Shown here piece after piece: positions 1,106-48,845 of a stretch of 64,000 bases of DNA. The stretch comes from an uncultured Bacteroidota bacterium (GTDB lineage: Bacteria > Bacteroidota > Bacteroidia > Bacteroidales > SZUA-534): positions 47,602 to 111,601 of the forward strand of contig CAMKOM010000008.1 of the NCBI GenBank assembly GCA_946414435.1, in the 5' to 3' direction. Position 1 is the stretch's first letter. Each line of letters starts with the position of its first letter. The translations under genes and the position numbers were made by a program. Under the pieces are notes generated by a model, which saw only the letters and a list, made by a program, of their open reading frames with translations, was not told where the DNA came from and ran no database searches.

Positions 1106-4100
1106 ATGAAAAGGTTAGCATTGAATTTCGGAGTAATGAGGAAAACAAGATTGTTTGGTCTTGCGGTTTTGGCTATCATATTGGGAAGTAGTGAGGTGGT
1201 GTGGGGGCAAGACATCCCTAGTGACCCTCGTTATAATTTCCATTCACAGGCAGATGATGATTGGGATGAGGAATCAACATGGACTACGGACTGGCCAGGA
1301 ACAACCGGTACACCGGGTTCTGCAATAGAACATTCGGTTGGTATTGACGGCAATACCGTTGAGCTAAACTCAATGCCCGCAAATGCTATCAAAAGGTTGC
1401 ATATTTACAACAATGGCGCACTTATTCTAAACGGAGCATTAATTGTAACACCAAAAAAAACAAGTGATGATTTCGCAATTTACAATGACGTTGAATTGAC
1501 AGGCACAGGCAGTCTAACCTTAAACGGTGTCATGTCAGGGCGTGGCCACATTTTGACAACAGGAATTAATGTCATTGCAAGTGGTGGTAGCGATTTTAGT
1601 AGTTTGTACCTTGTTGTTGCTGATAGCACCTTCACAAACAACCGAAATGGCAAAACCATCACCTCACTTGAGGTTTCAGGCGGTAAATTTGTTTCCAATT
1701 ATACTACCTATTGTGGCTCTTTGAAATTGAGTGGTGGCGAAATTGAAATTGCCAGTGGTGCTACACTGAAATCAAACGATAGGAGTCTGACCATTGATAT
1801 TCCGAATGTTAATGGCAGTGACACTATTATCGGTAGCGGCACTCTTGATGTTACCACAATTAATGTCGCTGAAGGTGATACGCTGACTATAGGCGGGGAA
1901 GTTAAATTAAGTCAGGTACTTACCATAAATGGTGTTGTGAGAATAATTGGCAACGTCACATTGCAGAATAATACCACAATTAATGGTAAGGTTATTATAG
2001 AAAAAGGCGAAGGAATAAAACTAAACATTGCAGATGGCAAAAACATCACTTTTGGTGAAAACTCAGATATGGAAGGAGGCGGCGAGTTGCATTTTGTTGG
2101 TGCGTCTACAATTAATAACTTACAAGATTGTTGTGATGTTATAGCAATTTGTGACAATGCAAGTAAGACAATTACTTATGCGGCGACATCAACCCACATA
2201 ATTCCAGGTACATATGCGAACTTGACTTTGAATGCGAATACAGATGGTGAGGTTCGAACACTTTGTGATACAGTAATAGTCAATGGCATTTTCACACCAA
2301 ATAAACACTACACACTACAAGGTAATGGCGGAAGAAAAGCATTTGCGGTAAAAGGTGAAGTAAAAAACGGTAAAATCTTAAAGTTTGACAATGTGAATGT
2401 AGCACTTGGCAATAGTGAAAGTGCAGATGCAATGAATGTTTCGGTTTCCGAATTTAATATAGGAGAAAATGATACTCTTACCATTGCGGGAAATGTGAAT
2501 TTAAGCGGTACTGGAAACAAGAAGTTTGATGGTGTTGGAGGAGAAAACGGAGAGATAATTATTGATGAAGGTAAAACACTGACTTCTTCGGGAACAGTTA
2601 CTTTTAGCAACGACCAGACAATCAGTGGCAATGGTACTTTCACAATCAGCAAACAAATTAATGGCACTAAACTCACAACATCAACAAATATCAACATGAC
2701 AGCTGGTGCGGGCTCTAGTATTGAATACGAAGTGGTTGGTGGCACGTTTACAAATACTAATACCACTAACAATTACACAGTAGCCAAATTGACTGTTAAT
2801 GGAGGAACCTATGTGTCGGCAAACGGAAAGAAAATCGCAGATTTGACTGTTGCGGGAGGAACGTTTGTCGCCGCAGAAAACACAACTGCCGATGTGATGA
2901 CCGTCACTGGCGGCACAGTCCAAGTTGATAAAGACAAAACCCTTACGGTTACAACCGGCAACAAACTGAATGTTGATGGTGCAGCGATATTTGTGGGCAA
3001 GGCAGGCAGCAAATTCATAACTGACAATGTTGAATTGTCTGAGAATGCGGCGCTTACTATCAAAGACACCGTAACGCTGACCCGTCCGTTAGTGGTGAAC
3101 AACAACGCAACTCTTGTGGGTGGCACAGTTAGCGACACTTTGAAATGGGACAGCCCCGAGCATTGCAAAATCAGCGTTACTTCTGGCACACTAACCATAA
3201 GCAACACTCTGACAGTGGATGGCGATGTTACACTCGAAGGCGCGATGAAAGTTGCCGAAGGTGGCAATCTGAACCTTGCCGGCAGCACAATCACTTTCGG
3301 CCCGACGGCTAAATTCACAGGTACTCAGGGCAACATAAGTTTTGTTGAAGGTGTTGTGATTTCCGGTTTGAAGAACGACCCCGATGTGAAGGCTAAATAT
3401 TTGAAATTTCCGGGAGCGGTAACTTACGACGCCACTTGCGCGGCAATGTTCCCAGGTGTGTATGGCAATGGTCTGACACTCAGTACCGAGGCTGGTAAGA
3501 ACATAGCCATTTACGATTCGGTTACGATAACAGGCGCACTCAACTGGGCCGCCGGTCGCATTGTGCTGAACGGTAATCCGTTGATTGTTAAAGAGACGTT
3601 CAGTTCGGGCACATTCGATGAGAACCACATGGTGGTTGCCGGCAAAAAAGGCAAGTACATTTTTGTTGCCGACGCTGCTTATGCGGCTCTGGACTTAACA
3701 GCTCCTGTTGGTACTAGCAGTCTGACAAGTGCAGGTACATTATTGTATGGTTATTCACCGGCAACAATTAATATCGGTGAAGCCGTAGCGATAGGCGATA
3801 GCATAATTGTGGAAGTTGAAGGTGAGGCTTTGTTGGGCAAGGCAACCGACTTGCGCCGCTACTGGACAATCAGCAGCAACCAAAATTTCACAGGCACCAT
3901 GACATTCAATTACACCGCAGCCGATGACTTGTTGGATTATGGCAGCAAAAACTATTGGGCAGTATTCCATGGCAGCAGTGTTTATGAAAAAGGTGGTGCT
4001 CAGATTAATAGCCCATTCGCCCAACATTTTAGCATTACAGATGAAAACATAAATGGCGTTTGGACGGCATGTGAATACCCGGCTGCAGTAACTCTTTACT

Positions 4101-7100
4101 CGTTTGGCTCAGGCTATTGGGATAATCCGTCTTCGTGGACAACCAATTCGGCAGGTTCAACTCAGCCGGCTGAAGGCGCACAAGCACCTAACGAACGGTG
4201 CGATGTTGTGATTTTGCCGGGAAGTGTTATCACCGGAAGAAGTGCTGGTGTAAGAGCCCGTTCGGTAACTCTTAAAAACGAGACTTCCACATTGGTTATC
4301 AATCCCGATTGTGCAGATGTTTCTATTGTCAATCTTACAGGAGAGGGAAGATTGGTCATAAAAGATAAGGGAAGTTTCCCTGAGGGCATTGATAATACCG
4401 ATTTGTTTATGGCACCGGGCGGTGGCACAACCGAGTTCAGCGGTTCAAGTTCGGGCGAGTACGAGTTGAGTAAGACTGAGTTTAATAATTTGATTATCAA
4501 TTTGGAAGATGGTGCAGAGGTGAAACTGCCGAGTAATAATAATCATAAGTTGCAGATAAACGGCTATTTCGAACTTGAAAACGGCGAAATTATTTATACC
4601 GCCGAAAATCAGTCGATTCATGTTGGCGGCAATATGAATGTGGGCAGTGGTGGAAAAATCACTAACGAGTCAGGAAAAGGCAATTTGGCTACAGCCGATA
4701 CTTTGCAGGTAGGCGGCGACCTTATTAATGATGGTATAATCAGACTGACCAAACGGCTTTGGGATGATTATTCAATAGCAACGGCAATGGATGATGAAAA
4801 AACGGATGGTCGCGGAATATTGAGGTTTGTAGGCGAAAGCAATGTCGATTTCAAGTGTAACAGCACAACCAATATCAGCCAACTCATTATAGACAAAGGC
4901 TCTAATGACAAATATAAAGTAACACTGTTCTCAAAGACGGAAAGATGTTTTGGCCTTTTAGGGCGCGCCACAAATAATGCAAACCCTGAAGGTTTTAGAA
5001 GCGGTGTGGCTTATCCGGCCAATCCTGTAGTCTTATATAAACCGTTGTGGTTGAGAGCCGGAACGCTTGAACTTACGGGCCATGTTTTTATTCGCTCACT
5101 GTCAGAGAAGGGTGATGGTAATAATGGTTTGGATTGTTTCTATATTCCTGAAAGGGGCAGTTTGGTTTTGAATGGCAGAGATGTTAAGGTTTGGACAACA
5201 TTCTCAGAGACAACGGTATCATACGCTTCAGTTATTCCTGCGGGAAGGCTTATTATAAAAGACGGTGAATTTGACGGGCGGGGTAGTTCTGGTATAACTT
5301 TTGTCGGTTCTTCGTATATTGATATACAAGGCGGAACTTTGCGTGGCGCGCAATTCCGTCCAAGCGCGTTTGCCCTAAATGGTTTAACCACGTATGTACA
5401 ATCGGGCGGAACCGTCACATTCGACGGATGTGGAGAATTGAACACTGGTGCACCAGTATTCTTTATGCCAGAGGCTTCCTACACGTTTAAGATGACTGGA
5501 GGCACACTGATTGTTAGTTCGGCTGGACCAGAAGGTGCGTTTATGGTGAAATCAAATCCTGAAAACGGAAAAATATCAGGCGGTGAAATTATAATAAACA
5601 CTGGTGCTGCTATGAAAAGCGGTAAAGATGAAAGTAAACCTAATTACTTAATTGCTACAGAGTTGCCATTGTATAAGCTGACACTTCGTAACAGCCCTGA
5701 AATTGCACCAAAGAGTTATGCTAGACACTATATTGCTAACGTTAACAAAAAATATCTCAATAATAAATACCAATGTAATATTACTGCGTCAACCATTGTA
5801 GAAAACGATTTGACAATCGAAAATGGTGTTGTTTTCGATTGTCAGGGCTTGCCTGTAACTGTCGGAGGAAACTTGAATATCGAAAGTGGTTCAACAGTTT
5901 ACACCAAAGGTGGCGGCACGTCGGAAAACGAGTTTATTATGAATGGCAGTGGCGAGTTGACAGTTGCCGGAACAGTTGCCTGCAGCAGTAGTGATGCAAG
6001 TGCCGGTTTTTATAATTTGACATTAGCCGAAGGTGCCGATGTGGCGATAAAAAACGACATTACGGTCAGAGGCTTGTTCAAATTGGCCAACAGAGCTACA
6101 ATGAGAGATGGCGGCAGCAACAGAACTTACACAATGCTGGGCGATGTTGAAGTTGATGGAACTTATGAAAAGTGCAGTTCGTGCGGCAGCAAGATGGTGA
6201 TTAAGGGTGAAAATATCTATAGCACAGGCACAGGCGAACTGAGTTATGTCGATATAGACGCCGGCAGCGAGTTGAAACTTGCCGACCGCACCAATGCCGG
6301 ACGTCAGACAAAACTGACAATTTCCGGCAACCTTAACTTTGTTAGCGAGACGCAGTTCAACATTGGCGGCAGCAATTTGGAATTTGGTTCGGAAGCCACA
6401 GTTACAGGTGCGTTCGGTCCAACCCGAATGATTCGCACAGTGGGCACAAGCAGCCGCGGCGTCACGAAAGTGTTTGCCACAAATGGCGAATTCAAATTCC
6501 CGTTTGGTTTTGTATCAAGCGAAGGTTATTCGTACTATACCCCGGCCAACATTAAATACACCACTGCCGATACATACGGTAGTGTTACGTCGCGGCCGGT
6601 GTTCGGGCAGGCTTTCCGCGATGCCAATTCACTCAAGTGCTACTGGATTACCGATGAGCGCGGATTCAGCGGAGCAAGCCTATCACAAGAGTATTTCTGG
6701 TATGACGAAGATGGTAAACCGAGTCTTTCCGAAGGTTCAACAGCAGCCTGGGTGCCGGCTCGCCGCAATGGCTCGACATGGCAGCAGTTCGGAACCAATT
6801 TTGTGGATTTGGATGGCACGGCAAACAGTTCTTATGAGCGTCGCATTTACTTCGACCCGAATGTGACGACCGCTACCGGCTACTACACTTGTGGCTTGCC
6901 GATGTCGTTCACAAACGGAACCCCGCTGTACACGTCGAATGTTGTTGCCGACACTCTGGATTGGTTCGATGTTAACACTTGGTCGGAATCACCCAATGGT
7001 GACCCATGCGGTTGCATTCCGTCGGAAACCACACCTGTATATATTGGTGATGAAGATAACAAACGTGTTGTCAGAATATCTGTTCCTGACGATTACGCTG

Positions 7101-10100
7101 GTTCGCGCGGTGAGTGCGCAAGTCTTGATATTGCACCGGGCTCAACGCTCGACCTGACAAATTACAACAATTTCAAAGCACCTATTGTTGATGTCGATGA
7201 GTCGGTTGGCGCCGGAAAACTGCGTCTGTCGTCGCCATATTTCCCTGAGGGCGATTTCGGCAAATTCAATGGCGAGTTTGGTGGTACGGTTGAGTATTAT
7301 GGTAATGGATATACAATACCAACCGAGGCAATCGATGGTTCGGCCTTGGTAAATTACTGTAATCTACTCATAAGCGGTGGCACGACGGGGAATGAAATAG
7401 GCATGCCCGCGTCCAATGTTACAGTTTTCGACAGCCTTAAAATCAGCGGTAGCGCACGCACAAATCCAACAGGCAGTTTCACTATCGACATTCACAAGGA
7501 TTTTATTATCGCCAATGGCGGAAGGTTTGAAGTATTTGAAAATGGTTCGGCTAATCAGCAAACTATCAAGGTGGCTGACAGCCTGATTGTAGCCGAAGGT
7601 GCAACAATGATTGCTACCGGTACTGCCGCAAACTCAACTACCAATCTTTTGCAGATTGGCCGCGATTTGATTGTCGATGGCACATTTATGGCTAAAAGTG
7701 GCAATTATAAGTTTAATACAGAGTTTGTTGGTAAAACTGACTCGCGTATCAGGAGCAGCCAAAATCTGACACTTAACATGCTCACTTGCAACAAAAACTC
7801 AATAGATGACAAGTTGATTCTTAAAACAACAAAGAAGATTAATACTGCCAATAGCAATGCTCTTCTGGATTTGGTTAAGGGCACATTTGTTGTAGAGATA
7901 GGTGACGGAGGCGAAGTTGAACTCACAGCTAACAAGACGCTAACTATTCCGGGAGAAGCATGTCTGTCGATAGTATCAGGTAAGGCAAAGGTCGCAACGG
8001 GTGGTAACGCTACAGGAATTAGTCTGAAAGGTAAAATTCAAATCTCAGGTGGTGAGTTAATAGTCGGAACTGGCGAATCAGCAAGCAAATACAATAGTAT
8101 TCAATACACTGCCGATGGCAAACCGACTATTGAGATAAGCGGCGGCACATTGAATGTTATCGGGCAAATCAGCAGAACTCAAAACCAAACCACTGGCAGC
8201 CTTATTTGGAAGCAGTATGGCGGTGATGTGGTAGTGCAAGGCAGAAATCGTGGAAGTGTCCTTTGGCTTACAGATTTCGCAGCATTTGAAGTGTTGGAAT
8301 CAGGTGAATTTGACATGCAGGGCGGAACGCTGACGGTCATGAATGGTAATGGCAACGAAGGCTATGGCGACATATTCATAGAGCCCGACATTATGAATTG
8401 CACCGGCGGTACAATCATTGTTGGTGGCGGCTCGCAGAAAGTGTATATTCCGTCAAGTCTGAACAATATCGAAGTGGCCAACGGCGCCACACTTAACGCA
8501 TACACGGCATTAGATGTCAATGAACTGACAATCAACAACACAGGCGTGTTTAATGCACGTAACCATGACCTGACAATCCGCAAGGCGTTTAGAAACTATA
8601 ACAACGAGAACATTTCGGGTATCAGCGCCGGATTCAACTTTGGAACAACAACGCAATTGACCAAGTTTGTCGGTAGCGACATGACTTATGAAGGAGCCAA
8701 CGCTTCGGCAACGCAGTTCAACACGGTAGAAGTCGAAGGCAACCTGACGCTGCTGTCTAACCACTCAAGTATAAGTGTCGGTGGCAATCTTACCCAGAGA
8801 GAAGGTACTGTAACCGACAACGGCAATGTCATTTCGTTGTTCGGGAACCTTATCTATTACGGTGGATTCGAAGGTACCGGCGGTATAAATTTCTGCCGCA
8901 CCGACGATGTCCAGTATATTGAAGGCAACAGTCTGGAATCAATCGGAGCAATAACTGTTAACAATCCGAACGAAGTTTATTTGAACACAAATGTTCGCAT
9001 TAGCAATAAGATTAGATTAGGTGCAAATCTCTATATCAATCGTAACAGCTTGATTCTTGGCAAGGATGCCACGGTTGAGAGCGCAAGCGGCACCTTCGAC
9101 GGAACACACATGCTTCGTCTCAACGGTGAGCATGAAGACAAGGGCGTTACCAAATACGTAAAAAAAGATGCGTCGAACTTTACTCTTCCTATAGGTGTTG
9201 TGCATGAAGGCAACCGCTACTATACGCCGGCAGTCTACGATTTTACCAGCAACGATAGGGACAATTGTTCAATCACGGTCAAGGCAATCAATTCGATTCA
9301 CAATAACTTGACGTTCGATCCGTCGAAGTGGCTCGCTTACTATTGGATGGTTACAACCGAAGGTTTTGGCGAAGACGGTAGAGATAATTTCTCGATAAAG
9401 TCAACCGATTTCTCTGTAACCCAGACATACTATTATCCGGCCGAAAAACTATTAGGAACGAGCGACACGTTGTTCCCCGAATACATGTACTACGGCGGAA
9501 CTGATGAGTATAAGTGGATTGACCTTCGCGGTGATGGCACAACCGGTTCGGAATTGGCGAATATTGGAACGAATAACGTGACATTCAAGCCGTTTGGTCA
9601 TATTGCAGGCGATTACACAGTTGGTGTTGTTGGCAGTAATGCAGAAGACAACGCAGGTATTTACACCGGGCGTCCGATTCTTTACACTCGTGGCGATGGT
9701 GGTGGTGATTGGGACAACCCCAAAACATGGAATTATATAGATGGAAGCGGCGTGGAGCATTGGCTCTATGATGATACGGGTGATGTGGCTGCTGATTATA
9801 AAATAGATGGCAATCCTGTACATATTCTTCCGGGTGATGTTGTAAATGTAAAGCGCAGCCACACAAACGCTTACAGCCTGACATTCGACGATGGCACAGA
9901 AATGGGCGTTTTGAATTTGGGCAATACTGTGGGTAGCAATTTCGGCCGTGTCAATGGTACAGGAAAACTGATTATGGAACCGGTTGAAACAGAAGGCGAC
10001 AAATATTATAAGATGCCGGCCGGAAACTTCACAACATTCTTGAGCGATGAGCGAAGCATTGTCGAATTTGCCGGCGGCGATGGTAAACTGCCAAACGCAG

Positions 10101-13100
10101 TTGTCGGTCACGTCTCTTTGCCGTTGCAGAATGTGGTTCTTTCAGGCGGCGGCACCAAAACGCTGACAAAAGAGTATGGTGAGTATATCAACAAGAGCAT
10201 GGTTATCAGAAACGGAACTAAACTTGCTTTTGGTAATACACCTATTTATATGAAGGGCGACTGGATTGATGAAAACACTGGTGATGGTGGTTTCTTGCCA
10301 GGTTCAAACAACGACAGGTCGATTGTCACATTCAATGGAACCAGCCGGCAGAAGATTGTTCTTTCGGGCAACAACGAGTCGTTCTACCGCGTGATAATCA
10401 ACAACCCAAGCGACGTTGAAATTGTTCGTGCCGAATCGGCCACCGAAGCAGGCATAATTATCAATAAATCGTTGGAATTCACCAATGGTTGCTTGATTGA
10501 TACAGCCGAGAACACAAGCGTCACTCTGCTGCGCACTGCAACTGTTACCCGTCCGGGCGCAACGTCGTTTGTGGCTGGCCCGCTTACATGGAAATTGAAC
10601 GCTGGCGATAACCGCGACTTCCCGATAGGCGGCCTTGACGAGTCGGTGGGCAAAGTTTACGCACTGACAAAACTCAACAACGTGTCTGTGAATGGTGACT
10701 ACACTGTGACATTCCATTCGGGAACATACAGCTTTGATGTGGTATGGCCGTTTACCAGCATGAGCAACACCGAAAAATGGACAGTGTCGGGTCCGACAGG
10801 CGCCACAGCCAAATTGGGCCTTCGCGTAGGTTCACGCACATTCACTACAATTAATGCTTCGATGCTCAAACGTGTGAAAATAGCAGGTAAGAAGGGCACC
10901 GAATGGGAAATAATAGAAAGTTCGCACAACAGCGGCTCAATTCCGACAGCAATAATATTGTCCGCTGCAGCCTTAACAATTTCAGAGTACGAAGAATATA
11001 CGTTAGGCAGCAGCAACAGCACTGCGCGGTTGTTGAGCAAAACCGAAGAAAACCAGACAGATGAAACATATATCTGTGATGGTGACGCCGATGCAACCGC
11101 AATCCCGGTATATTTCACCGGCATGGGTGGCCCGTACACTGTGACTTACAAGATAACCGATAAGGAAAAGAACAAATCGGTAACCGTAACAAGTCCGAAA
11201 TTTACTGACAGCGAAGGTGTGATAGCACTCACCGGCAGCGATTTGGCTGCCAAGTTCGGCAGAACCGACGGCTATTCGACCCAGCCGTATGTGGTTGAAA
11301 TAACCGGAATGAAAGACGGTAGCGAAGATGGTATGCCTGCCGGCAACAACAAGGCAAATGTGAATGTTCTCTACAATCCCAAACCAGTTATCGATGGTGC
11401 AGGAACAGTCGGAATGGGTGACGAGCGCGTCTACACAGTCACAGCCGACGACAAGGTAGACGCCTACACGTGGAGTGATAATTCCGATTATGTTGAAATA
11501 GCACCTGCCGGCAATACTGCAAATATTCAATTCGGTACCAATACTTCCACTTATAGTGTGACATTGACGGTCCGCAACACCTATAAAAAGTCGCACGATA
11601 AGGTTTGCTACCGCGAGAATTCGAAGGATGTAGCCGTCGATATTTATCCGCAACCTGAAATCACTGGTAATTTCGGAATATGCCGGGCAGATGGAACGGC
11701 TGAGTTTATGACAGAAAAAGTCGGCAGCCACACCTATCAGTGGGTTGTCAAAGACGAAGCCGACGAGAACGTTAGCAGCACTATCACTATCGATAAGACT
11801 GGCGAGAGTGCTGACAACAACAAAATCAAACTTACGTGGGACGATAGTTTCACCGCTTCAAAAGTTACACTGCATGTAATTGAGAAAAATGGCGATTTGG
11901 GCAAGGATGTCAAGCGCGTCATAACATTCTACGACGATGTTACATTTAATGCTGATGATTTCTATGGTTCTGTCATTTGTGACAATACGGTTGGAACCGT
12001 GACAATTGAACACACAAACATTAATTACTCATACATTATTTACAAAGGCGAAACTGCAATGTGCGAAGAGTTTGGCGGTAATGGCACCGACGACCCGATT
12101 CAGATTCACACAAGCGAGCCCCTGCGTTACGCCGACGGCAATTTGAATTTCAAAGTCGTTGTTAAGAACAAAGGCTGCCAGAAGCAAGTCAATGACAAAT
12201 CGATTCAGGTTCATGAAAACCCGTCTATTAAAGAATTCATAATAGCCGACAATGAGTTGTACAAAGGCAATCTGGTGCAGATTGACTATACGAAAACAAG
12301 CACCGTTGGCATAAAAGGTTATGAATTTGCTTATAGCCTTGATGGTGTTACATACTCGGCCCCGGCACCTACAGGAATCAGAAAAGACGATTTGTCAGGC
12401 GGCAAAATGGTAATTGAAATACCAAAAGCCGACAGGATGAAGGGCTTGCTCACCATTAAGAGCGATGATGATGTCAAGAGTTGCGACAACACTTACGAAA
12501 TCGACAAACCTATCAGCAACGCTTATTTGTGGCGTGGCGATGGCGCTGATACCGATTGGAATAATGATGCCAACTGGTGGAGCGGTGATGCCCCTGAAAG
12601 TGGTGACGATGTGGTTGTCCGCGACAATTATAAAATCACATTTAAAGGTGGCAAGTCGAGTGATAAAATTAGTATGCCGACAGTCAACGGAACTGCTGCC
12701 GCAGTCAGAAACATTAACGTTGGAGCTGGCGCGAAAGTAAATCTTGCCGATGGTGCCAAATTGACCATACATAAAGATGTTACTTGCGACGGTCAATTCA
12801 ATAGCACTGGCAGTGGCGAAGTTGCCTTCACCGACGGCGAGCACGCAGTCTCGGGTGCAGGCTCGTTCGCAAATATGTCGAACGTGGGAACAGTGACCGC
12901 TAGCAGCGATATGTCAGTGACAGGCAACATTACCAATAACGGCAAATTCGTGGGAACTGTCAAGTTGAACGGCGGCGCCGCACAAAGTGTTGGCGGTGGC
13001 GAATTCGAGAATCTGACAGTCGAGAATCTGACAGTCGACAAAGCTGGCGTTACTATCAATAACAGCATTAACATTGATGGCAAACTGACACTTACCAAAG

Positions 13101-14173
13101 GTGTTGTCAGTGTCAATGGTGGGCAAGCGCTTGTCTTTACCAAAAATGCCAAACCTGTTGCTGGCGCCAGTGCCAATTCATACGTCGATGGCACAATTTG
13201 GAAATATGGAAAAACACCGTTCGTATTCCCGACAGGAAGCAATGGCCGCCTTGCACAAATCGGTATAGCACCAGGCAGCGATGCAACTGACGCCACTTAT
13301 TATTCGGCGTCGTACACCCTTGTTGCGGACAAAGAGCCGTTGACCACGGGTCTGCCAACAGGCATGAGCCGTGTCAGCCAGGCTGAGACATGGTTAGTTG
13401 ATTGCCCAGGTGGGAAATCAAGCAAGCTTACGCTCTATTGGTCTGATGCCGAAGCAAGTGGCATTACACCTGGTAAAGAGTCGGATTTGGTGGTCGCTCA
13501 TTTCACAGAAGGGAAATGGAAGGCCGAGCCTGCCAAGTTCGATGGCGTAAATTCTATTACAACCACAGCGTATATTACGTCCTACAGTCCGTTCACCTTC
13601 GGTGCCAAAAATCCAGAACCGGATATCAATCCGCTTCCTGTCACCTTCGTGACCTTCACAGGCCGTCAGGTTGATAATAGCATTGTGCTTGAGTGGGCAA
13701 CCATGTCGGAGAGCAACAACGACTACTTCGAGATTGAGCGCTCGATTGATGGTGTCAACTACGTGACAGTTGGTTATGTTGACGGTGCCGGCAATTCGAG
13801 CAGCCTGCTCAACTATCAGTTTACTGATAATGCGCCTGAGCAGGGACAACTCTACTACCGCTTGTCGCAAGTCGATTTCGATGGCACGCGCGAGTATGCC
13901 GACAAGATAGTGACTGTGCTTTACGCAGGCGACGAGATGGGTAGTCTGAGAGTCGTGCCGAACCCGACAAACGGTTTGTTCCGCATCAATGTTGGCAGAG
14001 GAATGGCTGACGGTATAGTCCGTTTGATATCTCAGAGCGGTACAGTTGTCAGAGTGTTCGAGATCAATGGTTGCGAGCAAAGTCTCGACATTAGTGATCT
14101 GCAAGACGGTGTCTACATATTGCAGTACACAAGCAACAGTAAGGTTTTGCAACATAAGGTTGTTAAATACTAA
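1106..14173 (+). CDS. Giant secreted repeat protein with T9SS type A sorting domain
   Basis: A 4,355-residue protein, probably exported by the Sec system and then by the type IX system to the cell surface. I chose ATG 1106 over the track's TTG 1082 because a purine-rich site and promoter fit it. A signal peptide (LAVLAIILGSSEVVWGQ) is followed by long Gly/Thr/Asn-rich beta-helix-like stretches. Five modules begin with a W-x5-W motif (W53, W1005, W1953, W2869, W3818). Each ends in a short FPxG-like and YW-type module (for example YWITDE near 1844, YYWMVT near 2744). PKD-like Ig folds occupy roughly 3420-3780. An FN3-like domain (about 4178-4262) precedes the sorting domain (VVPNPTNGLFRI to the end). 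Role not known; adhesin or surface-layer protein is inference from architecture. It is single-gene and terminated on its own. The 5' part looks AT-richer than the 3' part. Confidence 0.9.
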   Translation: MKRLALNFGVMRKTRLFGLAVLAIILGSSEVVWGQDIPSDPRYNFHSQADDDWDEESTWTTDWPGTTGTPGSAIEHSVGIDGNTVELNSMPANAIKRLHIYNNGALILNGALIVTPKKTSDDFAIYNDVELTGTGSLTLNGVMSGRGHILTTGINVIASGGSDFSSLYLVVADSTFTNNRNGKTITSLEVSGGKFVSNYTTYCGSLKLSGGEIEIASGATLKSNDRSLTIDIPNVNGSDTIIGSGTLDVTTINVAEGDTLTIGGEVKLSQVLTINGVVRIIGNVTLQNNTTINGKVIIEKGEGIKLNIADGKNITFGENSDMEGGGELHFVGASTINNLQDCCDVIAICDNASKTITYAATSTHIIPGTYANLTLNANTDGEVRTLCDTVIVNGIFTPNKHYTLQGNGGRKAFAVKGEVKNGKILKFDNVNVALGNSESADAMNVSVSEFNIGENDTLTIAGNVNLSGTGNKKFDGVGGENGEIIIDEGKTLTSSGTVTFSNDQTISGNGTFTISKQINGTKLTTSTNINMTAGAGSSIEYEVVGGTFTNTNTTNNYTVAKLTVNGGTYVSANGKKIADLTVAGGTFVAAENTTADVMTVTGGTVQVDKDKTLTVTTGNKLNVDGAAIFVGKAGSKFITDNVELSENAALTIKDTVTLTRPLVVNNNATLVGGTVSDTLKWDSPEHCKISVTSGTLTISNTLTVDGDVTLEGAMKVAEGGNLNLAGSTITFGPTAKFTGTQGNISFVEGVVISGLKNDPDVKAKYLKFPGAVTYDATCAAMFPGVYGNGLTLSTEAGKNIAIYDSVTITGALNWAAGRIVLNGNPLIVKETFSSGTFDENHMVVAGKKGKYIFVADAAYAALDLTAPVGTSSLTSAGTLLYGYSPATINIGEAVAIGDSIIVEVEGEALLGKATDLRRYWTISSNQNFTGTMTFNYTAADDLLDYGSKNYWAVFHGSSVYEKGGAQINSPFAQHFSITDENINGVWTACEYPAAVTLYSFGSGYWDNPSSWTTNSAGSTQPAEGAQAPNERCDVVILPGSVITGRSAGVRARSVTLKNETSTLVINPDCADVSIVNLTGEGRLVIKDKGSFPEGIDNTDLFMAPGGGTTEFSGSSSGEYELSKTEFNNLIINLEDGAEVKLPSNNNHKLQINGYFELENGEIIYTAENQSIHVGGNMNVGSGGKITNESGKGNLATADTLQVGGDLINDGIIRLTKRLWDDYSIATAMDDEKTDGRGILRFVGESNVDFKCNSTTNISQLIIDKGSNDKYKVTLFSKTERCFGLLGRATNNANPEGFRSGVAYPANPVVLYKPLWLRAGTLELTGHVFIRSLSEKGDGNNGLDCFYIPERGSLVLNGRDVKVWTTFSETTVSYASVIPAGRLIIKDGEFDGRGSSGITFVGSSYIDIQGGTLRGAQFRPSAFALNGLTTYVQSGGTVTFDGCGELNTGAPVFFMPEASYTFKMTGGTLIVSSAGPEGAFMVKSNPENGKISGGEIIINTGAAMKSGKDESKPNYLIATELPLYKLTLRNSPEIAPKSYARHYIANVNKKYLNNKYQCNITASTIVENDLTIENGVVFDCQGLPVTVGGNLNIESGSTVYTKGGGTSENEFIMNGSGELTVAGTVACSSSDASAGFYNLTLAEGADVAIKNDITVRGLFKLANRATMRDGGSNRTYTMLGDVEVDGTYEKCSSCGSKMVIKGENIYSTGTGELSYVDIDAGSELKLADRTNAGRQTKLTISGNLNFVSETQFNIGGSNLEFGSEATVTGAFGPTRMIRTVGTSSRGVTKVFATNGEFKFPFGFVSSEGYSYYTPANIKYTTADTYGSVTSRPVFGQAFRDANSLKCYWITDERGFSGASLSQEYFWYDEDGKPSLSEGSTAAWVPARRNGSTWQQFGTNFVDLDGTANSSYERRIYFDPNVTTATGYYTCGLPMSFTNGTPLYTSNVVADTLDWFDVNTWSESPNGDPCGCIPSETTPVYIGDEDNKRVVRISVPDDYAGSRGECASLDIAPGSTLDLTNYNNFKAPIVDVDESVGAGKLRLSSPYFPEGDFGKFNGEFGGTVEYYGNGYTIPTEAIDGSALVNYCNLLISGGTTGNEIGMPASNVTVFDSLKISGSARTNPTGSFTIDIHKDFIIANGGRFEVFENGSANQQTIKVADSLIVAEGATMIATGTAANSTTNLLQIGRDLIVDGTFMAKSGNYKFNTEFVGKTDSRIRSSQNLTLNMLTCNKNSIDDKLILKTTKKINTANSNALLDLVKGTFVVEIGDGGEVELTANKTLTIPGEACLSIVSGKAKVATGGNATGISLKGKIQISGGELIVGTGESASKYNSIQYTADGKPTIEISGGTLNVIGQISRTQNQTTGSLIWKQYGGDVVVQGRNRGSVLWLTDFAAFEVLESGEFDMQGGTLTVMNGNGNEGYGDIFIEPDIMNCTGGTIIVGGGSQKVYIPSSLNNIEVANGATLNAYTALDVNELTINNTGVFNARNHDLTIRKAFRNYNNENISGISAGFNFGTTTQLTKFVGSDMTYEGANASATQFNTVEVEGNLTLLSNHSSISVGGNLTQREGTVTDNGNVISLFGNLIYYGGFEGTGGINFCRTDDVQYIEGNSLESIGAITVNNPNEVYLNTNVRISNKIRLGANLYINRNSLILGKDATVESASGTFDGTHMLRLNGEHEDKGVTKYVKKDASNFTLPIGVVHEGNRYYTPAVYDFTSNDRDNCSITVKAINSIHNNLTFDPSKWLAYYWMVTTEGFGEDGRDNFSIKSTDFSVTQTYYYPAEKLLGTSDTLFPEYMYYGGTDEYKWIDLRGDGTTGSELANIGTNNVTFKPFGHIAGDYTVGVVGSNAEDNAGIYTGRPILYTRGDGGGDWDNPKTWNYIDGSGVEHWLYDDTGDVAADYKIDGNPVHILPGDVVNVKRSHTNAYSLTFDDGTEMGVLNLGNTVGSNFGRVNGTGKLIMEPVETEGDKYYKMPAGNFTTFLSDERSIVEFAGGDGKLPNAVVGHVSLPLQNVVLSGGGTKTLTKEYGEYINKSMVIRNGTKLAFGNTPIYMKGDWIDENTGDGGFLPGSNNDRSIVTFNGTSRQKIVLSGNNESFYRVIINNPSDVEIVRAESATEAGIIINKSLEFTNGCLIDTAENTSVTLLRTATVTRPGATSFVAGPLTWKLNAGDNRDFPIGGLDESVGKVYALTKLNNVSVNGDYTVTFHSGTYSFDVVWPFTSMSNTEKWTVSGPTGATAKLGLRVGSRTFTTINASMLKRVKIAGKKGTEWEIIESSHNSGSIPTAIILSAAALTISEYEEYTLGSSNSTARLLSKTEENQTDETYICDGDADATAIPVYFTGMGGPYTVTYKITDKEKNKSVTVTSPKFTDSEGVIALTGSDLAAKFGRTDGYSTQPYVVEITGMKDGSEDGMPAGNNKANVNVLYNPKPVIDGAGTVGMGDERVYTVTADDKVDAYTWSDNSDYVEIAPAGNTANIQFGTNTSTYSVTLTVRNTYKKSHDKVCYRENSKDVAVDIYPQPEITGNFGICRADGTAEFMTEKVGSHTYQWVVKDEADENVSSTITIDKTGESADNNKIKLTWDDSFTASKVTLHVIEKNGDLGKDVKRVITFYDDVTFNADDFYGSVICDNTVGTVTIEHTNINYSYIIYKGETAMCEEFGGNGTDDPIQIHTSEPLRYADGNLNFKVVVKNKGCQKQVNDKSIQVHENPSIKEFIIADNELYKGNLVQIDYTKTSTVGIKGYEFAYSLDGVTYSAPAPTGIRKDDLSGGKMVIEIPKADRMKGLLTIKSDDDVKSCDNTYEIDKPISNAYLWRGDGADTDWNNDANWWSGDAPESGDDVVVRDNYKITFKGGKSSDKISMPTVNGTAAAVRNINVGAGAKVNLADGAKLTIHKDVTCDGQFNSTGSGEVAFTDGEHAVSGAGSFANMSNVGTVTASSDMSVTGNITNNGKFVGTVKLNGGAAQSVGGGEFENLTVENLTVDKAGVTINNSINIDGKLTLTKGVVSVNGGQALVFTKNAKPVAGASANSYVDGTIWKYGKTPFVFPTGSNGRLAQIGIAPGSDATDATYYSASYTLVADKEPLTTGLPTGMSRVSQAETWLVDCPGGKSSKLTLYWSDAEASGITPGKESDLVVAHFTEGKWKAEPAKFDGVNSITTTAYITSYSPFTFGAKNPEPDINPLPVTFVTFTGRQVDNSIVLEWATMSESNNDYFEIERSIDGVNYVTVGYVDGAGNSSSLLNYQFTDNAPEQGQLYYRLSQVDFDGTREYADKIVTVLYAGDEMGSLRVVPNPTNGLFRINVGRGMADGIVRLISQSGTVVRVFEINGCEQSLDISDLQDGVYILQYTSNSKVLQHKVVKY
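13007..13036 (+). repeat. Perfect 15-nt tandem duplication inside the giant gene
   Basis: GAGAATCTGACAGTC occurs twice back to back and encodes two copies of ENLTV in the last beta-helix region. It is in frame and looks like a recent slippage or unit duplication. Confidence 0.9.
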
Positions 14174-16620: not shown

Positions 16621-17181
16621 GTGCTTCCAATTCTGCACTTTCCCACACTTCCATTAAAAATCCGCCGCCGCCCGCCGAAAAGCACCGTTCCCGAACCGAA
16701 AACACGGCTTTGTAAAATGTTGATTATCATTGGTGTTGGAAATGTTGCGGTTTTGGTACATCTTAATAATCAGCCAAATAGCCAAAAAGGCGGTTTTTAG
16801 AGTGTCTTTCTGACACAAATTTCAGCAAAAAATCAAAAAAAATGCGAGTGCCGATTCCGGGATTATAATCCTGACTATCAGCGTGTAACAATATGGCAAC
16901 GCTGTTAAGATTTTGCCGTTTAAAACCACTTATCGGCTTGAATATCAGCAATATAAATGGCAACGTGCGCGCAAAAGCATTGAACATCAATCGATTAACT
17001 GCTGTAGATTTGTCAGTGAAGTCAGTTGGTAATGGACAATTGACAATTTAGTGAATGAACAGATAACAATTAATAATTAACAATTCGGTAGGAAGGCATA
17101 AGACAAAAGGCATAAGTTACAAAAACAAAAAACTGACGTCTGTAGTCTGAGGTCTGACGACCAACAAAAAAAACTTAAAAA
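16621..17181. other. Gene-free spacer with short degenerate repeats
   Basis: About 560 nt with no convincing ORF. It contains a small GTGTC/GACAC hairpin (16801-16815) and, from about 17030, a chain of short imperfect direct repeats: ACAATTGACAATT, AACAATTAATAATTAACAATT, AAGGCATAAG twice, and GTCTG/TCTGA units. No TAnnTTTG promoter was found in front of the next gene. Confidence 0.6.
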
Positions 17182-43626: not shown

Positions 43627-43731
43627 AAAGTGGCGTTTGTGTAAATATTAACAGCAAATTGTTAGCATCGGCATTGTTTGTAAATTTTTTATTTATTTTT
43701 AACGCCATTCTACAGAGTAGTGAATGAATAT

Positions 43732-44682
43732 ATGAATTGTCGACGTCTATTGACGATAGTATTGGTAACACTTGCTTCGGTTGTGAGCGGGCAAACAGAG
43801 AACTTTTCCAGCCTGAGTATGTTCAATTACATGTACTACAACCCGGGTTATGCGGGTGACGGCAATGAGATAGAGGCAAGGGGACTGGTGCGGAACCAGT
43901 GGATGGGTTTTGAGGGTGCACCCCAGACTCAGACCTTCAGCATCGACGCCCCGTTTAAGCTCTTTGGCATAAGAAATGGTGCAGGTTTGACGATTATAAA
44001 TGACGAAATTGGAAATTTTCAGAACATTGGATTAAATTTTTCGTATGCATATAGACGTCAAATGTTGCAAGGTGAAGTTGGTTTTGGCGCAGGCTTGAGT
44101 ATGACAAACCAGTCGTTCAAGGGCTCGTGGGTTTTCCCTGACGGAGGGGCAAACGATCCATGGGTGCCTCAGAACGCGGAAGACAAGCCTATGTTCTTTG
44201 ACATGAATCTTGGATTCTATTATAGTTCCGAAAATGTTTATTTGAGTTGTTCGATGCGCAATTTGCTGCAATCACAAATCAAATATTCATCGACATCAGT
44301 AGGCGATGTGAAGCCGTCATATTGTGCAAGACAATTGTTTATGGGCGCGGGTTATGAATATCAGTTGACAAACCCCTTGTTCACCATCAAACCAAATTTA
44401 TTTATTGCAACAGACTTTGCCACAACATCCTTCTCGTTGTCAGGAATAGTGACTTATAACGAAAAATTCTATGGAGGAGTGGCATACAAGCCCATAGATG
44501 CGATAACATTTCTTGCCGGAGTATCGCTTCCATCGGGTATTGAGGTGGCTGTTTCATACGATTTGACCACAAGTAGTATAATAAATTACAGTCATGGATC
44601 GTTTGAGTTTATGATAGGATATTCATTTAGTTTGGACAAGGATAAGGACAATCGAAAATATAAGAGTGTTCGATTCCTTTAA
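43732..44682 (+). CDS. porP: Type IX secretion PorP/SprF family outer membrane protein
   Basis: 316 residues from ATG 43732, where a signal peptide begins (MNCRRLLTIVLVTLASVVSGQ); the track start is an upstream GTG. The protein has the PorP/SprF N-terminal block MFNYMYYNPGYAG and VRNQWMGFEGAPQTQ, followed by amphipathic strands ending in an aromatic C-terminal strand region, consistent with an outer-membrane barrel. PorP/SprF proteins work with GldK-N and help anchor or export T9SS cargo. It is the first of five consecutive T9SS genes. A weak -7-like TATTTTTA occurs at 43694. Confidence 0.9.
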   Translation: MNCRRLLTIVLVTLASVVSGQTENFSSLSMFNYMYYNPGYAGDGNEIEARGLVRNQWMGFEGAPQTQTFSIDAPFKLFGIRNGAGLTIINDEIGNFQNIGLNFSYAYRRQMLQGEVGFGAGLSMTNQSFKGSWVFPDGGANDPWVPQNAEDKPMFFDMNLGFYYSSENVYLSCSMRNLLQSQIKYSSTSVGDVKPSYCARQLFMGAGYEYQLTNPLFTIKPNLFIATDFATTSFSLSGIVTYNEKFYGGVAYKPIDAITFLAGVSLPSGIEVAVSYDLTTSSIINYSHGSFEFMIGYSFSLDKDKDNRKYKSVRFL

Positions 44683-44745
44683 TTTTTTTGATATTATTAT
44701 TTTTTTTATTGACTTTTAAAGTGTGAAAACAAATACAGTTGGGAT

Positions 44746-46122
44746 ATGAAAAAGTTAGCTTATTTGAGTGTTGTATTGCTCATAATTTCAGGCTGTTCCT
44801 CAGGAGGCAATGGCGAATTGATAGGCGTTCAAAATAGAAACGCTAACTATAGTGCGCCGCCTTTTGGAATGGTTTTGGTGCCAAAAGGAAGCTACCGCAT
44901 GGGACCAAGCGACCAAGATGTGCCTTGGGCAACCACAGCACAATCAAAAACTGTTTCGGTACCAGCATTTTGGATGGATGAGACCGAAATAACCAACAAC
45001 GAGTACCGTCAGTTCGTTTATTGGGTACGCGACTCTCTGGCCTACAGATTGTTAGGCGAGCAGATTGACGCATACCTGATTTCGGAGGACCAATATGGTG
45101 AGCCGATTGACCCACCGTTTATCAACTGGGAAGAGCCTATAAACTGGTATGGTGAAGAAGAAAAGACCATTCTCGAAGATTTGTACTATCCTGAGCACGA
45201 ACGCTTCTTCCGCCGTCGCGATATTGACACGCGTAAGTTGGTCTATGACTATTTCTGGATTGATTATCATCAGGCAGCACAAAAATTCACATTTGAGAAT
45301 GAAGCGCGTCGTCACTACAACTATAAAACTGGTCAGTATGACGGTGAGATTTATAATCTTGAAGGGAAACGCGTGCCAATCAAAGACCGTTCATCGTTCA
45401 TAATGCACGACAAGGTTCATGTATATCCCGATACATTATGCTGGATAGGCGATTTCTCATATTCTTACAATGAGCCTATGACTTCAATGTATTTCTGGTC
45501 ACCTTCATACGACAATTATCCTGTAGTTGGTGTTACATGGAAACAGGCAACAGCATTCTGCGTTTGGAGAACACAATTGTTAAACAATTATTTGATAACT
45601 GTAGGCCAGACATTTGAACAAGATTACAGGTTGCCGATAGAAGGCGAGTGGGAATATGCAGCCCGCGGCGGCAACGATTTGGCAGTTTATCCTTGGGGCG
45701 GCCCTTACACACGTAATGATAGAGGTTGCTTCCTTGCGAATTTCAAGCCTTTGCGTGGTGACTACTTGGATGATGGTGGTATGTACACCGTTGAGGTTGC
45801 CATCTACGAGGCCAACGACTTTGGTCTGTACGATATGGCAGGAAATGTGGCAGAATGGACAAGCTCGGCTTTTGACGAGAGTAGCTATACATTCACACAT
45901 GACTTGAGCCCCGACTACAAATACAATGCTCTGCCTGACGATCTTCCGGTAATGAAAAGAAAAGTTGTCCGCGGAGGTTCATGGAAAGACATCGCATATT
46001 ATTTGCAGAATGGTTCAAGAACATATGAGTATCAAGACTCTGCCAAGTCATATATCGGATTCCGTTGTGTAAGAACTTATATGGGACCTGATGAAACGGG
46101 TGCATCATCAAAAGTTTATTAA
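44746..46122 (+). CDS. gldK: T9SS ring lipoprotein GldK/PorK
   Basis: 458 residues. Lipoprotein signal MKKLAYLSVVLLIISGC (C17). The body is a formylglycine-generating-enzyme/sulfatase-modifying fold: FGMVLVPKGSYRMG at the start, FWMDETEITNNEYRQF, YRLPIEGEWEYAARGG, GLYDMAGNVAEWTSS and VVRGGSWKD. GldK forms the periplasmic ring with GldN under the outer membrane; the FGE fold is structural here by family knowledge. An insertion of about 150 residues separates the N-terminal block from the central FGE motifs, as in other GldK proteins. It lies 63 nt after porP. Confidence 0.95.
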   Translation: MKKLAYLSVVLLIISGCSSGGNGELIGVQNRNANYSAPPFGMVLVPKGSYRMGPSDQDVPWATTAQSKTVSVPAFWMDETEITNNEYRQFVYWVRDSLAYRLLGEQIDAYLISEDQYGEPIDPPFINWEEPINWYGEEEKTILEDLYYPEHERFFRRRDIDTRKLVYDYFWIDYHQAAQKFTFENEARRHYNYKTGQYDGEIYNLEGKRVPIKDRSSFIMHDKVHVYPDTLCWIGDFSYSYNEPMTSMYFWSPSYDNYPVVGVTWKQATAFCVWRTQLLNNYLITVGQTFEQDYRLPIEGEWEYAARGGNDLAVYPWGGPYTRNDRGCFLANFKPLRGDYLDDGGMYTVEVAIYEANDFGLYDMAGNVAEWTSSAFDESSYTFTHDLSPDYKYNALPDDLPVMKRKVVRGGSWKDIAYYLQNGSRTYEYQDSAKSYIGFRCVRTYMGPDETGASSKVY

Positions 46123-46167
46123 TAAGAAAACTAAAAACAAGTAACTAATTTAAATAGGAATAAAATT

Positions 46168-47202
46168 ATGAGTATTGCCGAATTAACCCAAAGTAGGGGG
46201 TACAAAAACTTTATGAAGTATGTGTATGGATGGGGTGCATCAATCGTACTTGTTGGTGCGTTGTTCAAAATCCAGCACTATCCAGGCGCATCAATAATGT
46301 TGATTGTCGGACTTTTGACAGAGGCATTAATCTTCTTCTTCTCGGCATTTGAGCCTTTGGCAGAAGAATTGGATTGGACATTGGTATATCCGCAGTTGGC
46401 AGGCTTGGAAGTAGATGATGATGAGCCTGCAAAACCGAGTCGTAAATTCGACAGAGTTACTGAACCAGCTTCATCTGGCAGCACAGGCGGTGTTTCTGTT
46501 CAGCAAACAGGCGGCGGATCGCAGGCTGCAGCTCCTGCAGGTGGTGGAGTTGTTTATGCCAGCGGCAGTGGTTCTGCTTTAGCTAAATTCGACGAAATGA
46601 TTGAGAAGGCCGAAATCACCCCCGGAATGTTTGAGAAACTGGGTAAAGGTTTGGCAAATCTTAATAAGACAATTGACCAATTGGGCTCTACAGTTGATAT
46701 CAATGTAGCAACTCAGGATTTTGTAACAAAGATGAACTCGGCAACAGAGTCGGTATCCGGCTTGGGCGACGCATACAAAAAATCTACCGAGGCTTTGTCG
46801 GCATCGGTTGGTGTTCTGTCGGAGACTTATGCTAATACCGCACAATCGTTCAATCAAAGCAACAATCAGATTGCCGAGGCTTACTCGCAGTTTGCGAACA
46901 AGCTCACTAGCGAGCTGAACTCCGTAGGCAGTCTGGGTACTGAATATGTTGATAAACTGGGTGGCTTGAACAAGAACCTGTCGGCACTCAATTCAGTTTA
47001 CGAGTTGCAGCTCGACAATATGAACAAGCAAGTTGAGACTTCGAAAGAATACATCAACGGGTTCGGCAGCATGATTGACAATATGAATCAGACTGTTGAT
47101 AATACGAAGAAGTTGAATCAGGGTGTTCAACTTTTGGAGCAGAATGTCGCATCATTGAACAACGTATACGGCAATATGCTTTCGTCGCTTAATATTAAGT
47201 AA
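46168..47202 (+). CDS. gldL: T9SS inner-membrane motor protein GldL/PorL
   Basis: 344 residues. Two N-terminal membrane helices (about 18-36 and 41-62) with the conserved glutamate E52 in GLLTEALIFFFSAFEP, equivalent to the residue implicated in proton-driven rotation of GldL with GldM. The rest is cytoplasmic: a flexible Gly/Ser/Gln-rich linker (about 105-140) and long helical repeats. With GldM it forms the motor that energises T9SS. Twenty nt from gldM. Confidence 0.95.
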   Translation: MSIAELTQSRGYKNFMKYVYGWGASIVLVGALFKIQHYPGASIMLIVGLLTEALIFFFSAFEPLAEELDWTLVYPQLAGLEVDDDEPAKPSRKFDRVTEPASSGSTGGVSVQQTGGGSQAAAPAGGGVVYASGSGSALAKFDEMIEKAEITPGMFEKLGKGLANLNKTIDQLGSTVDINVATQDFVTKMNSATESVSGLGDAYKKSTEALSASVGVLSETYANTAQSFNQSNNQIAEAYSQFANKLTSELNSVGSLGTEYVDKLGGLNKNLSALNSVYELQLDNMNKQVETSKEYINGFGSMIDNMNQTVDNTKKLNQGVQLLEQNVASLNNVYGNMLSSLNIK

Positions 47203-47221
47203 TTAAAGAAAAGGAAAAGTT

Positions 47222-48832
47222 ATGGGTCACGGCAAGGAAACGCCTAGGCAACAAATGATTGGCCTAATGTACTTGTTCTTAACATGTATGTTGGCTCTGA
47301 ACGTATCGAAAGACGTATTGGATTCTTTTGTGCTTGTTAGTGAAAGTTTGGGAAAAACTGTAAAGAACTACGAGACCAAAAACCAAAAGGTTTATGATGA
47401 GTTTGGGAAGCAGCTGACAATCAATGAGAACAAGGTTAGACCTTGGAAAGATAAAGCCGATGGCTTTAAGGAGTTAACCGACAGCCTTTGCAATCTTATT
47501 GAGAACTACAAAAAAGGATTCCTGACTTTGGCGGAGAACAGCAATGTTGAGAACGTGATCAAAGGTGATAGGTATGTCATTGATTCGATGAACTCAAAAG
47601 ATAATATTGACTTTGGTGGTCAGTATTTTATTTTGGAAGGACGCGGTGAAATTCTTAAAGGAAAATTAAATGAATACAAGGATGCCGCATTGGCATTGAT
47701 TCCGGAAAGTGAAATAAGTATTATTGACGGAATAAAAGGCACGCTGAACACTGATAGCCACACTGATAAGGAAGGAGCCATTCATACTTGGGAAGCTCGC
47801 ACCTTTGAGCACATTCCGGCAGTGGCAGATATTGTTATGCTGGACAAGTTGAAAACCGATATCAAGAATATTGAGACTGACGTTATCAACTATCTGTTTA
47901 AGCAAATCAGTGCGGGAGATTTCAAATTCAACGCATTGTCAGCTACGGTTATCCCTAACTCTAACTATGTGATGAGAGGCAATGAGTACACTGCAACGAT
48001 ATTCCTTGCGGCGTTCGACTCAACTCAGGATCCTGAAATTCTTGTTGGTTCTTATAAAAAGAACGGACCCGAGAATTATGAAATGGTTGGAGCATACGAG
48101 ACTTTGACCGTTGCACGTGGAAAAGGAGTCTACAAGAAAGTGGCTTCATCGCTAGGTGAGCGCAAGTGGGGCGGTTTGATTCGAATTAAACGTCCTGATG
48201 GCTCAGTCTCGAGTTATCCGTTTGAGGAGTCGTATCAAGTGGCCGAGCCAAGTCTGGTTATCTCACCGACAAAGATGAACGTATTCTACTATGGTATCGA
48301 GAACCCAGTTGCAATTTCTGTACCAGGTATTCCGTCTGACAAAATCAAGGTCAGCATTCCTGAAGGTGGTGCTACAATTAAAAAAGTTGGCAACGGCTAT
48401 GAAGTCAAACCTACTAAGCGCAGTGGAACTGTGAATGTGGCTGTTGCAGCAGAAATCGATGGCAAGTCAAAGAATATGGGCAGCATGTTGTTCCGTATCA
48501 AGACTATTCCTGAACCTAAAGCAAAGGTTATGGGTTATAGCAGTGGAACTATTGAAAAAGCCGTTCTTAGTGCAGCTAGTGGTGTGCAAGCCGATTTGGA
48601 GGATTTCGTTTTCGATTTGAAGTTCAAAATCACAAAATATACTGTCACAACCGTTGTTAGTGGCGGTATGACAAAGGAAATCGCCAAAAAAGGCGGCACC
48701 TTTGATGCAGAGGTTAAGAACTTGATAAAAGGATTGAAAAATAATGCGAGAATTACTATAGAGGATATTGAGGCTGTCGGACCCGATGGAGTGCCACGCT
48801 CATTGTCGCCTATAGTGTTTAAGGTTAAATAA
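47222..48832 (+). CDS. gldM: T9SS motor/periplasmic protein GldM/PorM
   Basis: 536 residues. The N-terminus MGHGKETPRQQMIGLMYLFL and the single membrane helix (LMYLFLTCMLALNVSKDVLD) are diagnostic. The remainder is periplasmic: a helical first domain followed by beta domains (SLVISPTKMNVFYYGIENPV, SPIVFKVK end) that form the shaft spanning to the GldKN ring. The order gldL-gldM-gldN with gaps of 19 and 13 nt indicates one operon. Confidence 0.95.
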   Translation: MGHGKETPRQQMIGLMYLFLTCMLALNVSKDVLDSFVLVSESLGKTVKNYETKNQKVYDEFGKQLTINENKVRPWKDKADGFKELTDSLCNLIENYKKGFLTLAENSNVENVIKGDRYVIDSMNSKDNIDFGGQYFILEGRGEILKGKLNEYKDAALALIPESEISIIDGIKGTLNTDSHTDKEGAIHTWEARTFEHIPAVADIVMLDKLKTDIKNIETDVINYLFKQISAGDFKFNALSATVIPNSNYVMRGNEYTATIFLAAFDSTQDPEILVGSYKKNGPENYEMVGAYETLTVARGKGVYKKVASSLGERKWGGLIRIKRPDGSVSSYPFEESYQVAEPSLVISPTKMNVFYYGIENPVAISVPGIPSDKIKVSIPEGGATIKKVGNGYEVKPTKRSGTVNVAVAAEIDGKSKNMGSMLFRIKTIPEPKAKVMGYSSGTIEKAVLSAASGVQADLEDFVFDLKFKITKYTVTTVVSGGMTKEIAKKGGTFDAEVKNLIKGLKNNARITIEDIEAVGPDGVPRSLSPIVFKVK

Positions 48833-48845
48833 AAAATTGAAGCGT

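Follow-up and report, generated by a model that had tools for sequence, protein, structure and literature searches.

Giant surface proteins exported by the type IX secretion system (T9SS) are well known. SprB of Flavobacterium johnsoniae is a giant gliding adhesin with a type B C-terminal domain (CTD) and a partner, SprF. T9SS surface proteins are also known to recombine: in the P. gingivalis gingipain Kgp, recombination or allelic exchange has given unlinked variants of the catalytic and adhesin domains (PMC5266723). Domain shuffling at the tips of adhesins has been described too, in fibrillar adhesins of the CshA/CshB type, which present a ligand-binding tip on a repetitive stalk (PMC10952558). 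The type A CTDs of P. gingivalis are cleaved off by PorU and the new C-terminus of the cargo is joined to A-LPS (PMC10202324, PMC8545088). It is important to realize that part of the T9SS cargo is released rather than anchored (PMC10202324).

The gene we discuss here lies in a window of 64,000 nucleotides (the whole stretch of DNA that was analysed) from an uncultured Bacteroidota bacterium. Annotation of this gene stops at its T9SS sorting domain. Across the whole protein, Pfam and NCBIfam find nothing else above cut-off than this C-terminal type A domain, the units described below are covered by no Pfam family above threshold, and the one beta-solenoid match in NCBIfam is far sub-threshold. 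Most of the residues belong to one family of units found from rumen Bacteroidales to Hymenobacter. What is new is this unannotated and widely conserved family of putative solenoid units, with positional orthology, in a gene whose tip, core and CTD appear to be inherited independently.

The open reading frame runs unbroken from M to KVVKY and is flanked by a gene for a PLP enzyme and an ORF of 540 aa. Its features are collected in Table 1. Synteny with the nearest relative (G011) is kept upstream of the giant gene and broken directly after it (window 14205 onwards; G011:C17:61543); the genes downstream sit on a different G011 contig. A stretch of about 30-60 bp at 17023-17086 of the window, before a TonB-receptor-like gene, recurs at several unrelated G011 sites and is either a dispersed repeat or a promoter element.

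Table 1. Features of the giant gene and of the export genes in the window, with the evidence for each
Feature	Position in window	Strand	Evidence
Whole gene, predicted giant T9SS type A cargo, 4,355 aa	1106..14173	+	single open frame; TIGR04183 31.4 bits, cut-off 23
Putative signal peptide, residues 1-34, MKRLALNFGVMRKTRLFGLAVLAIILGSSEVVWGQ	1106..1207	+	inspection of the N-terminus; conserved in genus homologues
Variable tip, residues 35-634, front of unit 1; next 3,500 residues 99% identical to G011 ortholog	1208..3007	+	pS ~0.4-0.8 vs core 0.034
Unit 1, residues 35-985, putative beta-solenoid, rear homologous to units 2 and 3	1208..4060	+	hhalign E 9e-14, 2e-11; model pLDDT 81
W-x5-W motif 1, WDEESTW, residue 53	1262..1282	+	motif scan
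Unit 2, residues 986-1935, W motif 4118-4138	4061..6910	+	hhalign E 6e-76 to unit 3; pLDDT 86; conserved across Bacteroidota
Unit 3, residues 1936-2850, W motif 6962-6982	6911..9655	+	hhalign, unit-specific profiles, tree
Unit 3 equivalent of second variable patch, residues ~2040-2320; invariable between this genome and G011	7223..8065 (approximate)	+	seen in G013/G015 and G009_b/G018_b; transferred by unit register
Unit 4, short, residues 2851-3300, made of head and tail, middle absent, W motif 9710-9730	9656..11005	+	hhalign to units 2, 3 and 5
PKD/Ig-like domains, residues 3301-3800, unrelated to units	11006..12505	+	PKD_6 22.5 bits (cut-off 25), above cut-off in relatives; hhalign
Unit 5, short, residues 3801-4190, W motif 12557-12577	12506..13675	+	hhalign to unit 4 tail E 8.5e-23, to unit 2 head E 2e-7
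C-terminal region, subject to exchange between relatives; holds the type A sorting domain Por_Secre_tail at residues 4285-4353	13676..14170	+	PF18962 E 9e-7; TIGR04183 E 1e-7; divergence jump
Putative intrinsic terminator, AAAGCCGG-loop-CCGGCTTT and T run, directly after the stop codon	14179..14205	+	sequence reading
T9SS core genes: PorP/SprF family, GldK, GldL, GldM, GldN	43720..49694	+	NCBIfam matches over cut-off

Secretion through the T9SS is predicted from sequence. The CTD passes the Pfam cut-off as well as that of TIGR04183 (PF18962, 29.6 bits against 27). TIGR04183 is the sole CTD model that the window protein matches; the type B model TIGR04131 is absent from it. Nor does the protein have the C-terminal outer-membrane beta-barrel of a type V autotransporter, its C-terminus being a T9SS CTD. 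Type A CTDs over cut-off number 52 in this genome, which also has a PorU sortase (1,058 bits, cut-off 420, at C28). Two more PorU-like matches, at G000:C40:1413-6086 and G000:C1:182326-183126, are below cut-off. The PorP/SprF gene of the window is 29.5 kb from the giant gene, within the gld cluster, and none lies beside the giant gene. GldL (window 46168-47199) has 84% DNA identity to its G011 counterpart and a pN of 0.071; its neighbours GldM and GldN have 93.6% and 92.3%, and a pN of about 0.01.

Other members of the family are arranged differently. In the relative L068 the protein closes with a type B CTD, and a PorP/SprF gene follows. Two giant relatives without a recognised CTD (L071, 2558-16599; L079, 7178-21471) have a TGPxYxIPN-like end, GPAHHIPN in L079, and are followed by short proteins, one of them with a type B CTD, and by a PorP/SprF gene; export or anchoring in trans is a possible reading of this arrangement. 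Similar ends are seen in L063, L064, L065 and L069. The arrangements of L068, L071 and L079 suggest that one stalk family is used with different export arrangements.

An earlier note, made from the letters of this DNA, described the protein as five W-x5-W modules about 940 residues apart, each with a closing module, and proposed that it grew by duplication of a unit. There are exactly five such motifs and they are where the note put them (WDEESTW at 53, WDNPSSW at 1005, WFDVNTW at 1953, WDNPKTW at 2869 and WNNDANW at 3818). This is well above expectation, the mean being 0.44 and the maximum 4 in 2,000 residue shuffles. The spacings of 952, 948, 916 and 949 residues are correct. The closing modules are only partly there: FPxG is found in units 2, 4 and 5 (1798, 3172, 4041), but unit 3 has FTLPIG (2692) and unit 1 has none near its end, and YW is found in units 1 to 3 (919, 1846, 2746), but unit 4 has KW (3225) and unit 5 has TW (4096).

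To judge whether the units are homologous we built profiles from orthologs and compared them in hhalign; the decoys, profiles with their columns reversed, scored no better than E 7e-4. Between units 2 and 3 the alignment spans the full unit (799 columns, E 6e-76). Unit 4 matches the heads of units 2 and 3 (E 2e-18 and 7e-17) and the tail of unit 3 (E 4e-10), so it is a unit that lacks the middle part. The tails of units 4 and 5 are alike, and the head of unit 5 matches unit 2; the rear part of unit 1 matches units 2 and 3, and its head matches weakly (E values in Table 1). Similarity thus reaches far past the Trp motifs, contrary to the outcome that the note had named as refuting its idea, and by these alignments the five units are truly homologous. 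Comparing unit with unit by BLAST is convincing only for 2-3 and, by the head, for 2-4, so profiles are required. Growth by duplication is supported for units 2, 3 and 4 (E 6e-76 to 7e-17); unit 1 is related mainly through its rear part.

The regular spacing of about 940 residues is only partly real. Units 4 and 5 are short, as the note had it; we measure about 450 aa for unit 4 and 390 aa for unit 5. What fills the fourth gap is indeed a PKD/Ig-like stretch, of about 500 residues, which has no hhalign link to any unit. In the window PKD_6 (PF19408) stays below its gathering score, but it reaches 41.3 and 39.4 bits in the orthologous regions of relatives. The spacing from the motif of unit 1 to that of unit 2 varies as well, being 952 here and 975, 913, about 530-570, about 1,230, 359 and about 2,150 in homologues. 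Since the first spacing is variable and the fourth combines a unit of half length with PKD/Ig-like domains, part of the regularity is accidental, and the idea of five equal modules as a design rule is not supported.

Homologues occur in all ten of the other genus genomes examined and in four further genera of the family. A scan of named genomes adds rumen assemblies of Salinivirgaceae, further Bacteroidales, one assembly of Cytophagaceae, and Hymenobacter negativus. Viral contigs gave no relatives. From Salinivirgaceae to Hymenobacter the order of units 2-3-4 is kept nearly everywhere, and each unit-specific profile scores highest where its own unit stands. A FastTree of 84 units groups unit 3 (support 1.0) and unit 4 (0.85) by position and not by species; unit 2 is not one clean split. 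Clustering by position implies that these duplications are older than the divergence of the taxa, and on this evidence units 2, 3 and 4 are ancient duplicates kept in a fixed order across the Bacteroidota. The number of units varies at the N-terminus, as a search suggested by the earlier note brings out: in G009, G016 and G017 the protein starts with one unit more, and the second unit of these three is the counterpart of unit 1 here. This genome carries at least two giant genes of the unit family. Tandem pairs of such genes are seen in G009 (L034/L035) and G018 (L040/L041). A type A CTD akin to that of the window gene (G000:C1:285431-285934) is on an ORF of 5,021 residues, a third giant cargo.

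The best reading of the units is a beta-solenoid, going by the strand pattern and weak structural neighbours. The AlphaFold models of unit 2 (27 sequences, mean pLDDT 86, pTM 0.79) and unit 1 (9 sequences, mean pLDDT 81, pTM 0.67) are both almost all-beta, which fits the beta-helix-like stretches seen earlier. When solved structures in the PDB were searched with these two models, no match reached E <= 0.001. Unit 2 comes closest to the autotransporter adhesin Ag43, though weakly (E 1.3e-3, prob 0.82, TM 0.15), and at the top for unit 1 are the S-layer protein RsaA (E 0.07) and autotransporter passengers, all at E >= 0.07. Searching the PDB by sequence profile gave only phage spike proteins at chance level. 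No adhesive or ligand-binding Pfam domain is recognised in unit 1 or the tip. The G8 domain (PF10162) matches the first strands just after W-x5-W in the heads of several unit-2 relatives (E 4e-4 to 0.1) and is found somewhere at E <= 0.1 in 12 of 27 unit relatives (best 9e-6); TMEM2 is low in the fold list of unit 2 (E 0.6). We reject G8 membership, as relatives inspected singly reach at most 20.6 bits against a gathering score of 22.9, and keep it as a lead.

There are two other ideas about what the protein is. It could be a structural coat, similar to a surface layer, with a variable end driven by escape from phages or grazers and not by ligand binding. The weak RsaA matches of the unit 1 model speak for this, and phage receptors can show localised recombination. 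However, those matches are not significant, the architecture is strongly polar with one main variable end, and with two or more giant family genes there is no single dominant coat gene. We consider a coat unlikely. The other idea is that the protein is an enzyme working on plant fibre, a polysaccharide lyase or esterase of the beta-helix kind, whose units would serve in catalysis or binding. Polysaccharide lyases are often right-handed beta-helices, the habitat is rich in fibre, the T9SS exports many such enzymes, and relatives have weak G8-like heads. We nevertheless find an enzyme rather improbable. No catalytic Pfam or NCBIfam family reaches its curated cut-off anywhere in the protein and the unit relatives show only partial sub-threshold matches; the solved structures that score best belong to autotransporter passengers and an S-layer protein; and Gly, Pro, Trp, Phe and Tyr make up most of the invariant columns of unit 2.

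The more informative finding about this gene, a mosaic structure that the earlier note had no means of seeing, comes from its close relatives. Compared with G011, residues 635-4180 (the core) are 99% identical in protein, and residues 35-634 (the tip) and the last ~170 residues have diverged. Synonymous divergence (pS) is 0.034 in the core (3,541 codons), about 0.55 in the tip and 0.4-0.6 in the CTD end, against a background of 0.10-0.47 in six other genes. The core is more similar than the genomes are and the tip is less similar. Between adjacent windows of 100 residues pS drops from 0.55 to 0.00. Across close relatives with this signature pS is 0.00-0.03 in the core and 0.5-0.7 in the first 280-640 residues. 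In G013/G015 pS is 0.00 over most of the core and about 0.7 in the first 200 residues; unit 3 holds a second patch of divergence, and the adjoining flank DNA is mostly 78-98% identical. In G009_b/G018_b the N-terminus and the CTD are divergent and the unit 3 patch is seen again, but the background is less even, divergence being scattered along the gene. G016/G017 are reversed: the first 1,290 residues have a pS of 0.22 with stretches at 0.00 and the rest 0.64, a case that leans on one background gene (0.54). That makes four informative close pairs. The tandem genes G009_a and G009_b are 93% identical in the DNA of the CTD and 46% upstream of it.

Tip pN is 0.13-0.51, and dN/dS in the tip is about 0.23-0.29 where computable. 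Such a ratio together with sharp shifts in dS argues for replacement by recombination and not for faster point mutation. The different histories of tip, core and CTD would arise if recombination joins other tips and tails to one core, or one tip to other cores. Judged from these alignments the gene is a recombinational mosaic in which tip, core and CTD are inherited independently, and the domain carrying the export signal is exchanged too. A search of this genome with unit 1 for silent tip cassettes or donor copies returned only the gene itself, and the signal peptide is found once, so these searches showed no donor within the genome.

Because the close homologues all come from metagenome assemblies, strain variants could have been joined within the giant gene, the near-identical cores ending up with the wrong tips and tails. 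Assemblers do break and rejoin long conserved genes at variable sites, and downstream synteny with G011 is lost at the end of this gene. We doubt this explanation strongly, since the compared genes are in frame throughout with signal peptide and CTD in place, and the signature is repeated in independent pairs of assemblies. The flanks of the pairs are clearly diverged, which rules out one strain binned twice as the source of identical cores. Even wrong joins would still require several tips for each near-identical core in the community. It is very improbable that the tip was never replaced and owes its divergence to point mutations under rapid diversifying selection: three close pairs do differ only at the N-terminal end (plus the CTD or one patch) and tip pN is high, but synonymous divergence rises alongside the amino acid changes (between this genome and G011 as given above; 0.00-0.2 vs 0.7 in G013/G015), selection on the protein would not lift dS in this way, and with dS jumping as well we reject positive selection as the cause.

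We believe the gene probably encodes a type IX-secreted beta-solenoid surface fibre of a rumen Salinivirgaceae bacterium, anchored at its C-terminus and bearing an exchangeable recognition tip at its distal end. The fibre protein would be exported through the T9SS, PorU would remove the CTD, and the new C-terminus would be attached to a surface glycolipid as in the type A cargo of P. gingivalis; anchoring to A-LPS is extrapolated from that species. The fibre would then stand on its C-terminus, with a stalk built of units 2-5 and the PKD/Ig domains, and the front of unit 1 would be the distal tip in contact with a partner such as plant fibre, host mucus or neighbouring microbes. Cargo attached through its C-terminus has its N-terminus as the free end, and this would fit the site of greatest variability; variation is also seen in the CTD and in one patch of unit 3. 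Exchanging the tip could change partner specificity, or allow escape from phages or grazers, without rebuilding the stalk. Both the adhesin function and the orientation of the fibre are what we infer from this pattern. An exchanged far end and export tag are as expected for a recognition protein that needs an ever-changing tip, and the mosaic points to the site where the fibre would touch the outside world. The prediction is that swapping or deleting the first ~600 residues changes partner specificity and leaves export as it is.

A wider reading is possible, and we offer it tentatively: a new, phylum-wide family of giant T9SS beta-solenoid fibres with a conserved stalk, swappable N-terminal tips and swappable export modules. 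A fibre would use a type A CTD, a type B CTD together with PorP/SprF, or a type B carrier that is a protein of its own, and the whole might act as a recombination-driven recognition system in gut and environmental Bacteroidota.

How does this compare with the systems already described? Like Kgp, the window protein is a large multi-domain surface protein with a signal peptide and a type A CTD, but it has no gingipain domains, its repeat is a putative beta-solenoid of about 900 residues outside Pfam, and what is exchanged in it is the N-terminal end along with the CTD. SprB and the window protein are alike in being giant T9SS-exported surface proteins. They differ in that the CTD of the window protein is of type A and no PorP/SprF gene adjoins its gene; the SprB-like traits, a type B CTD or an adjacent type B carrier with PorP/SprF, are found in the relatives L068, L071 and L079 of the window protein. 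The likeness to G8 proteins (TMEM2, CEMIP) is in the heads of unit-2 relatives and not in the window's five heads, none of which matches G8. Unit 2 resembles adhesins of the Ag43 type in its predicted all-beta solenoid and its surface display, but the export route is by a T9SS CTD without a beta-barrel, the TM-score is only 0.15, and no sequence homology was found. The comparison with CshA/CshB is one of how the proteins would work, since folds and anchoring differ and the tip function here is the one we propose. On that comparison the giant gene would be the T9SS counterpart of the tip-variable adhesins, with its anchor at the C-terminus and its variable end at the N-terminus.
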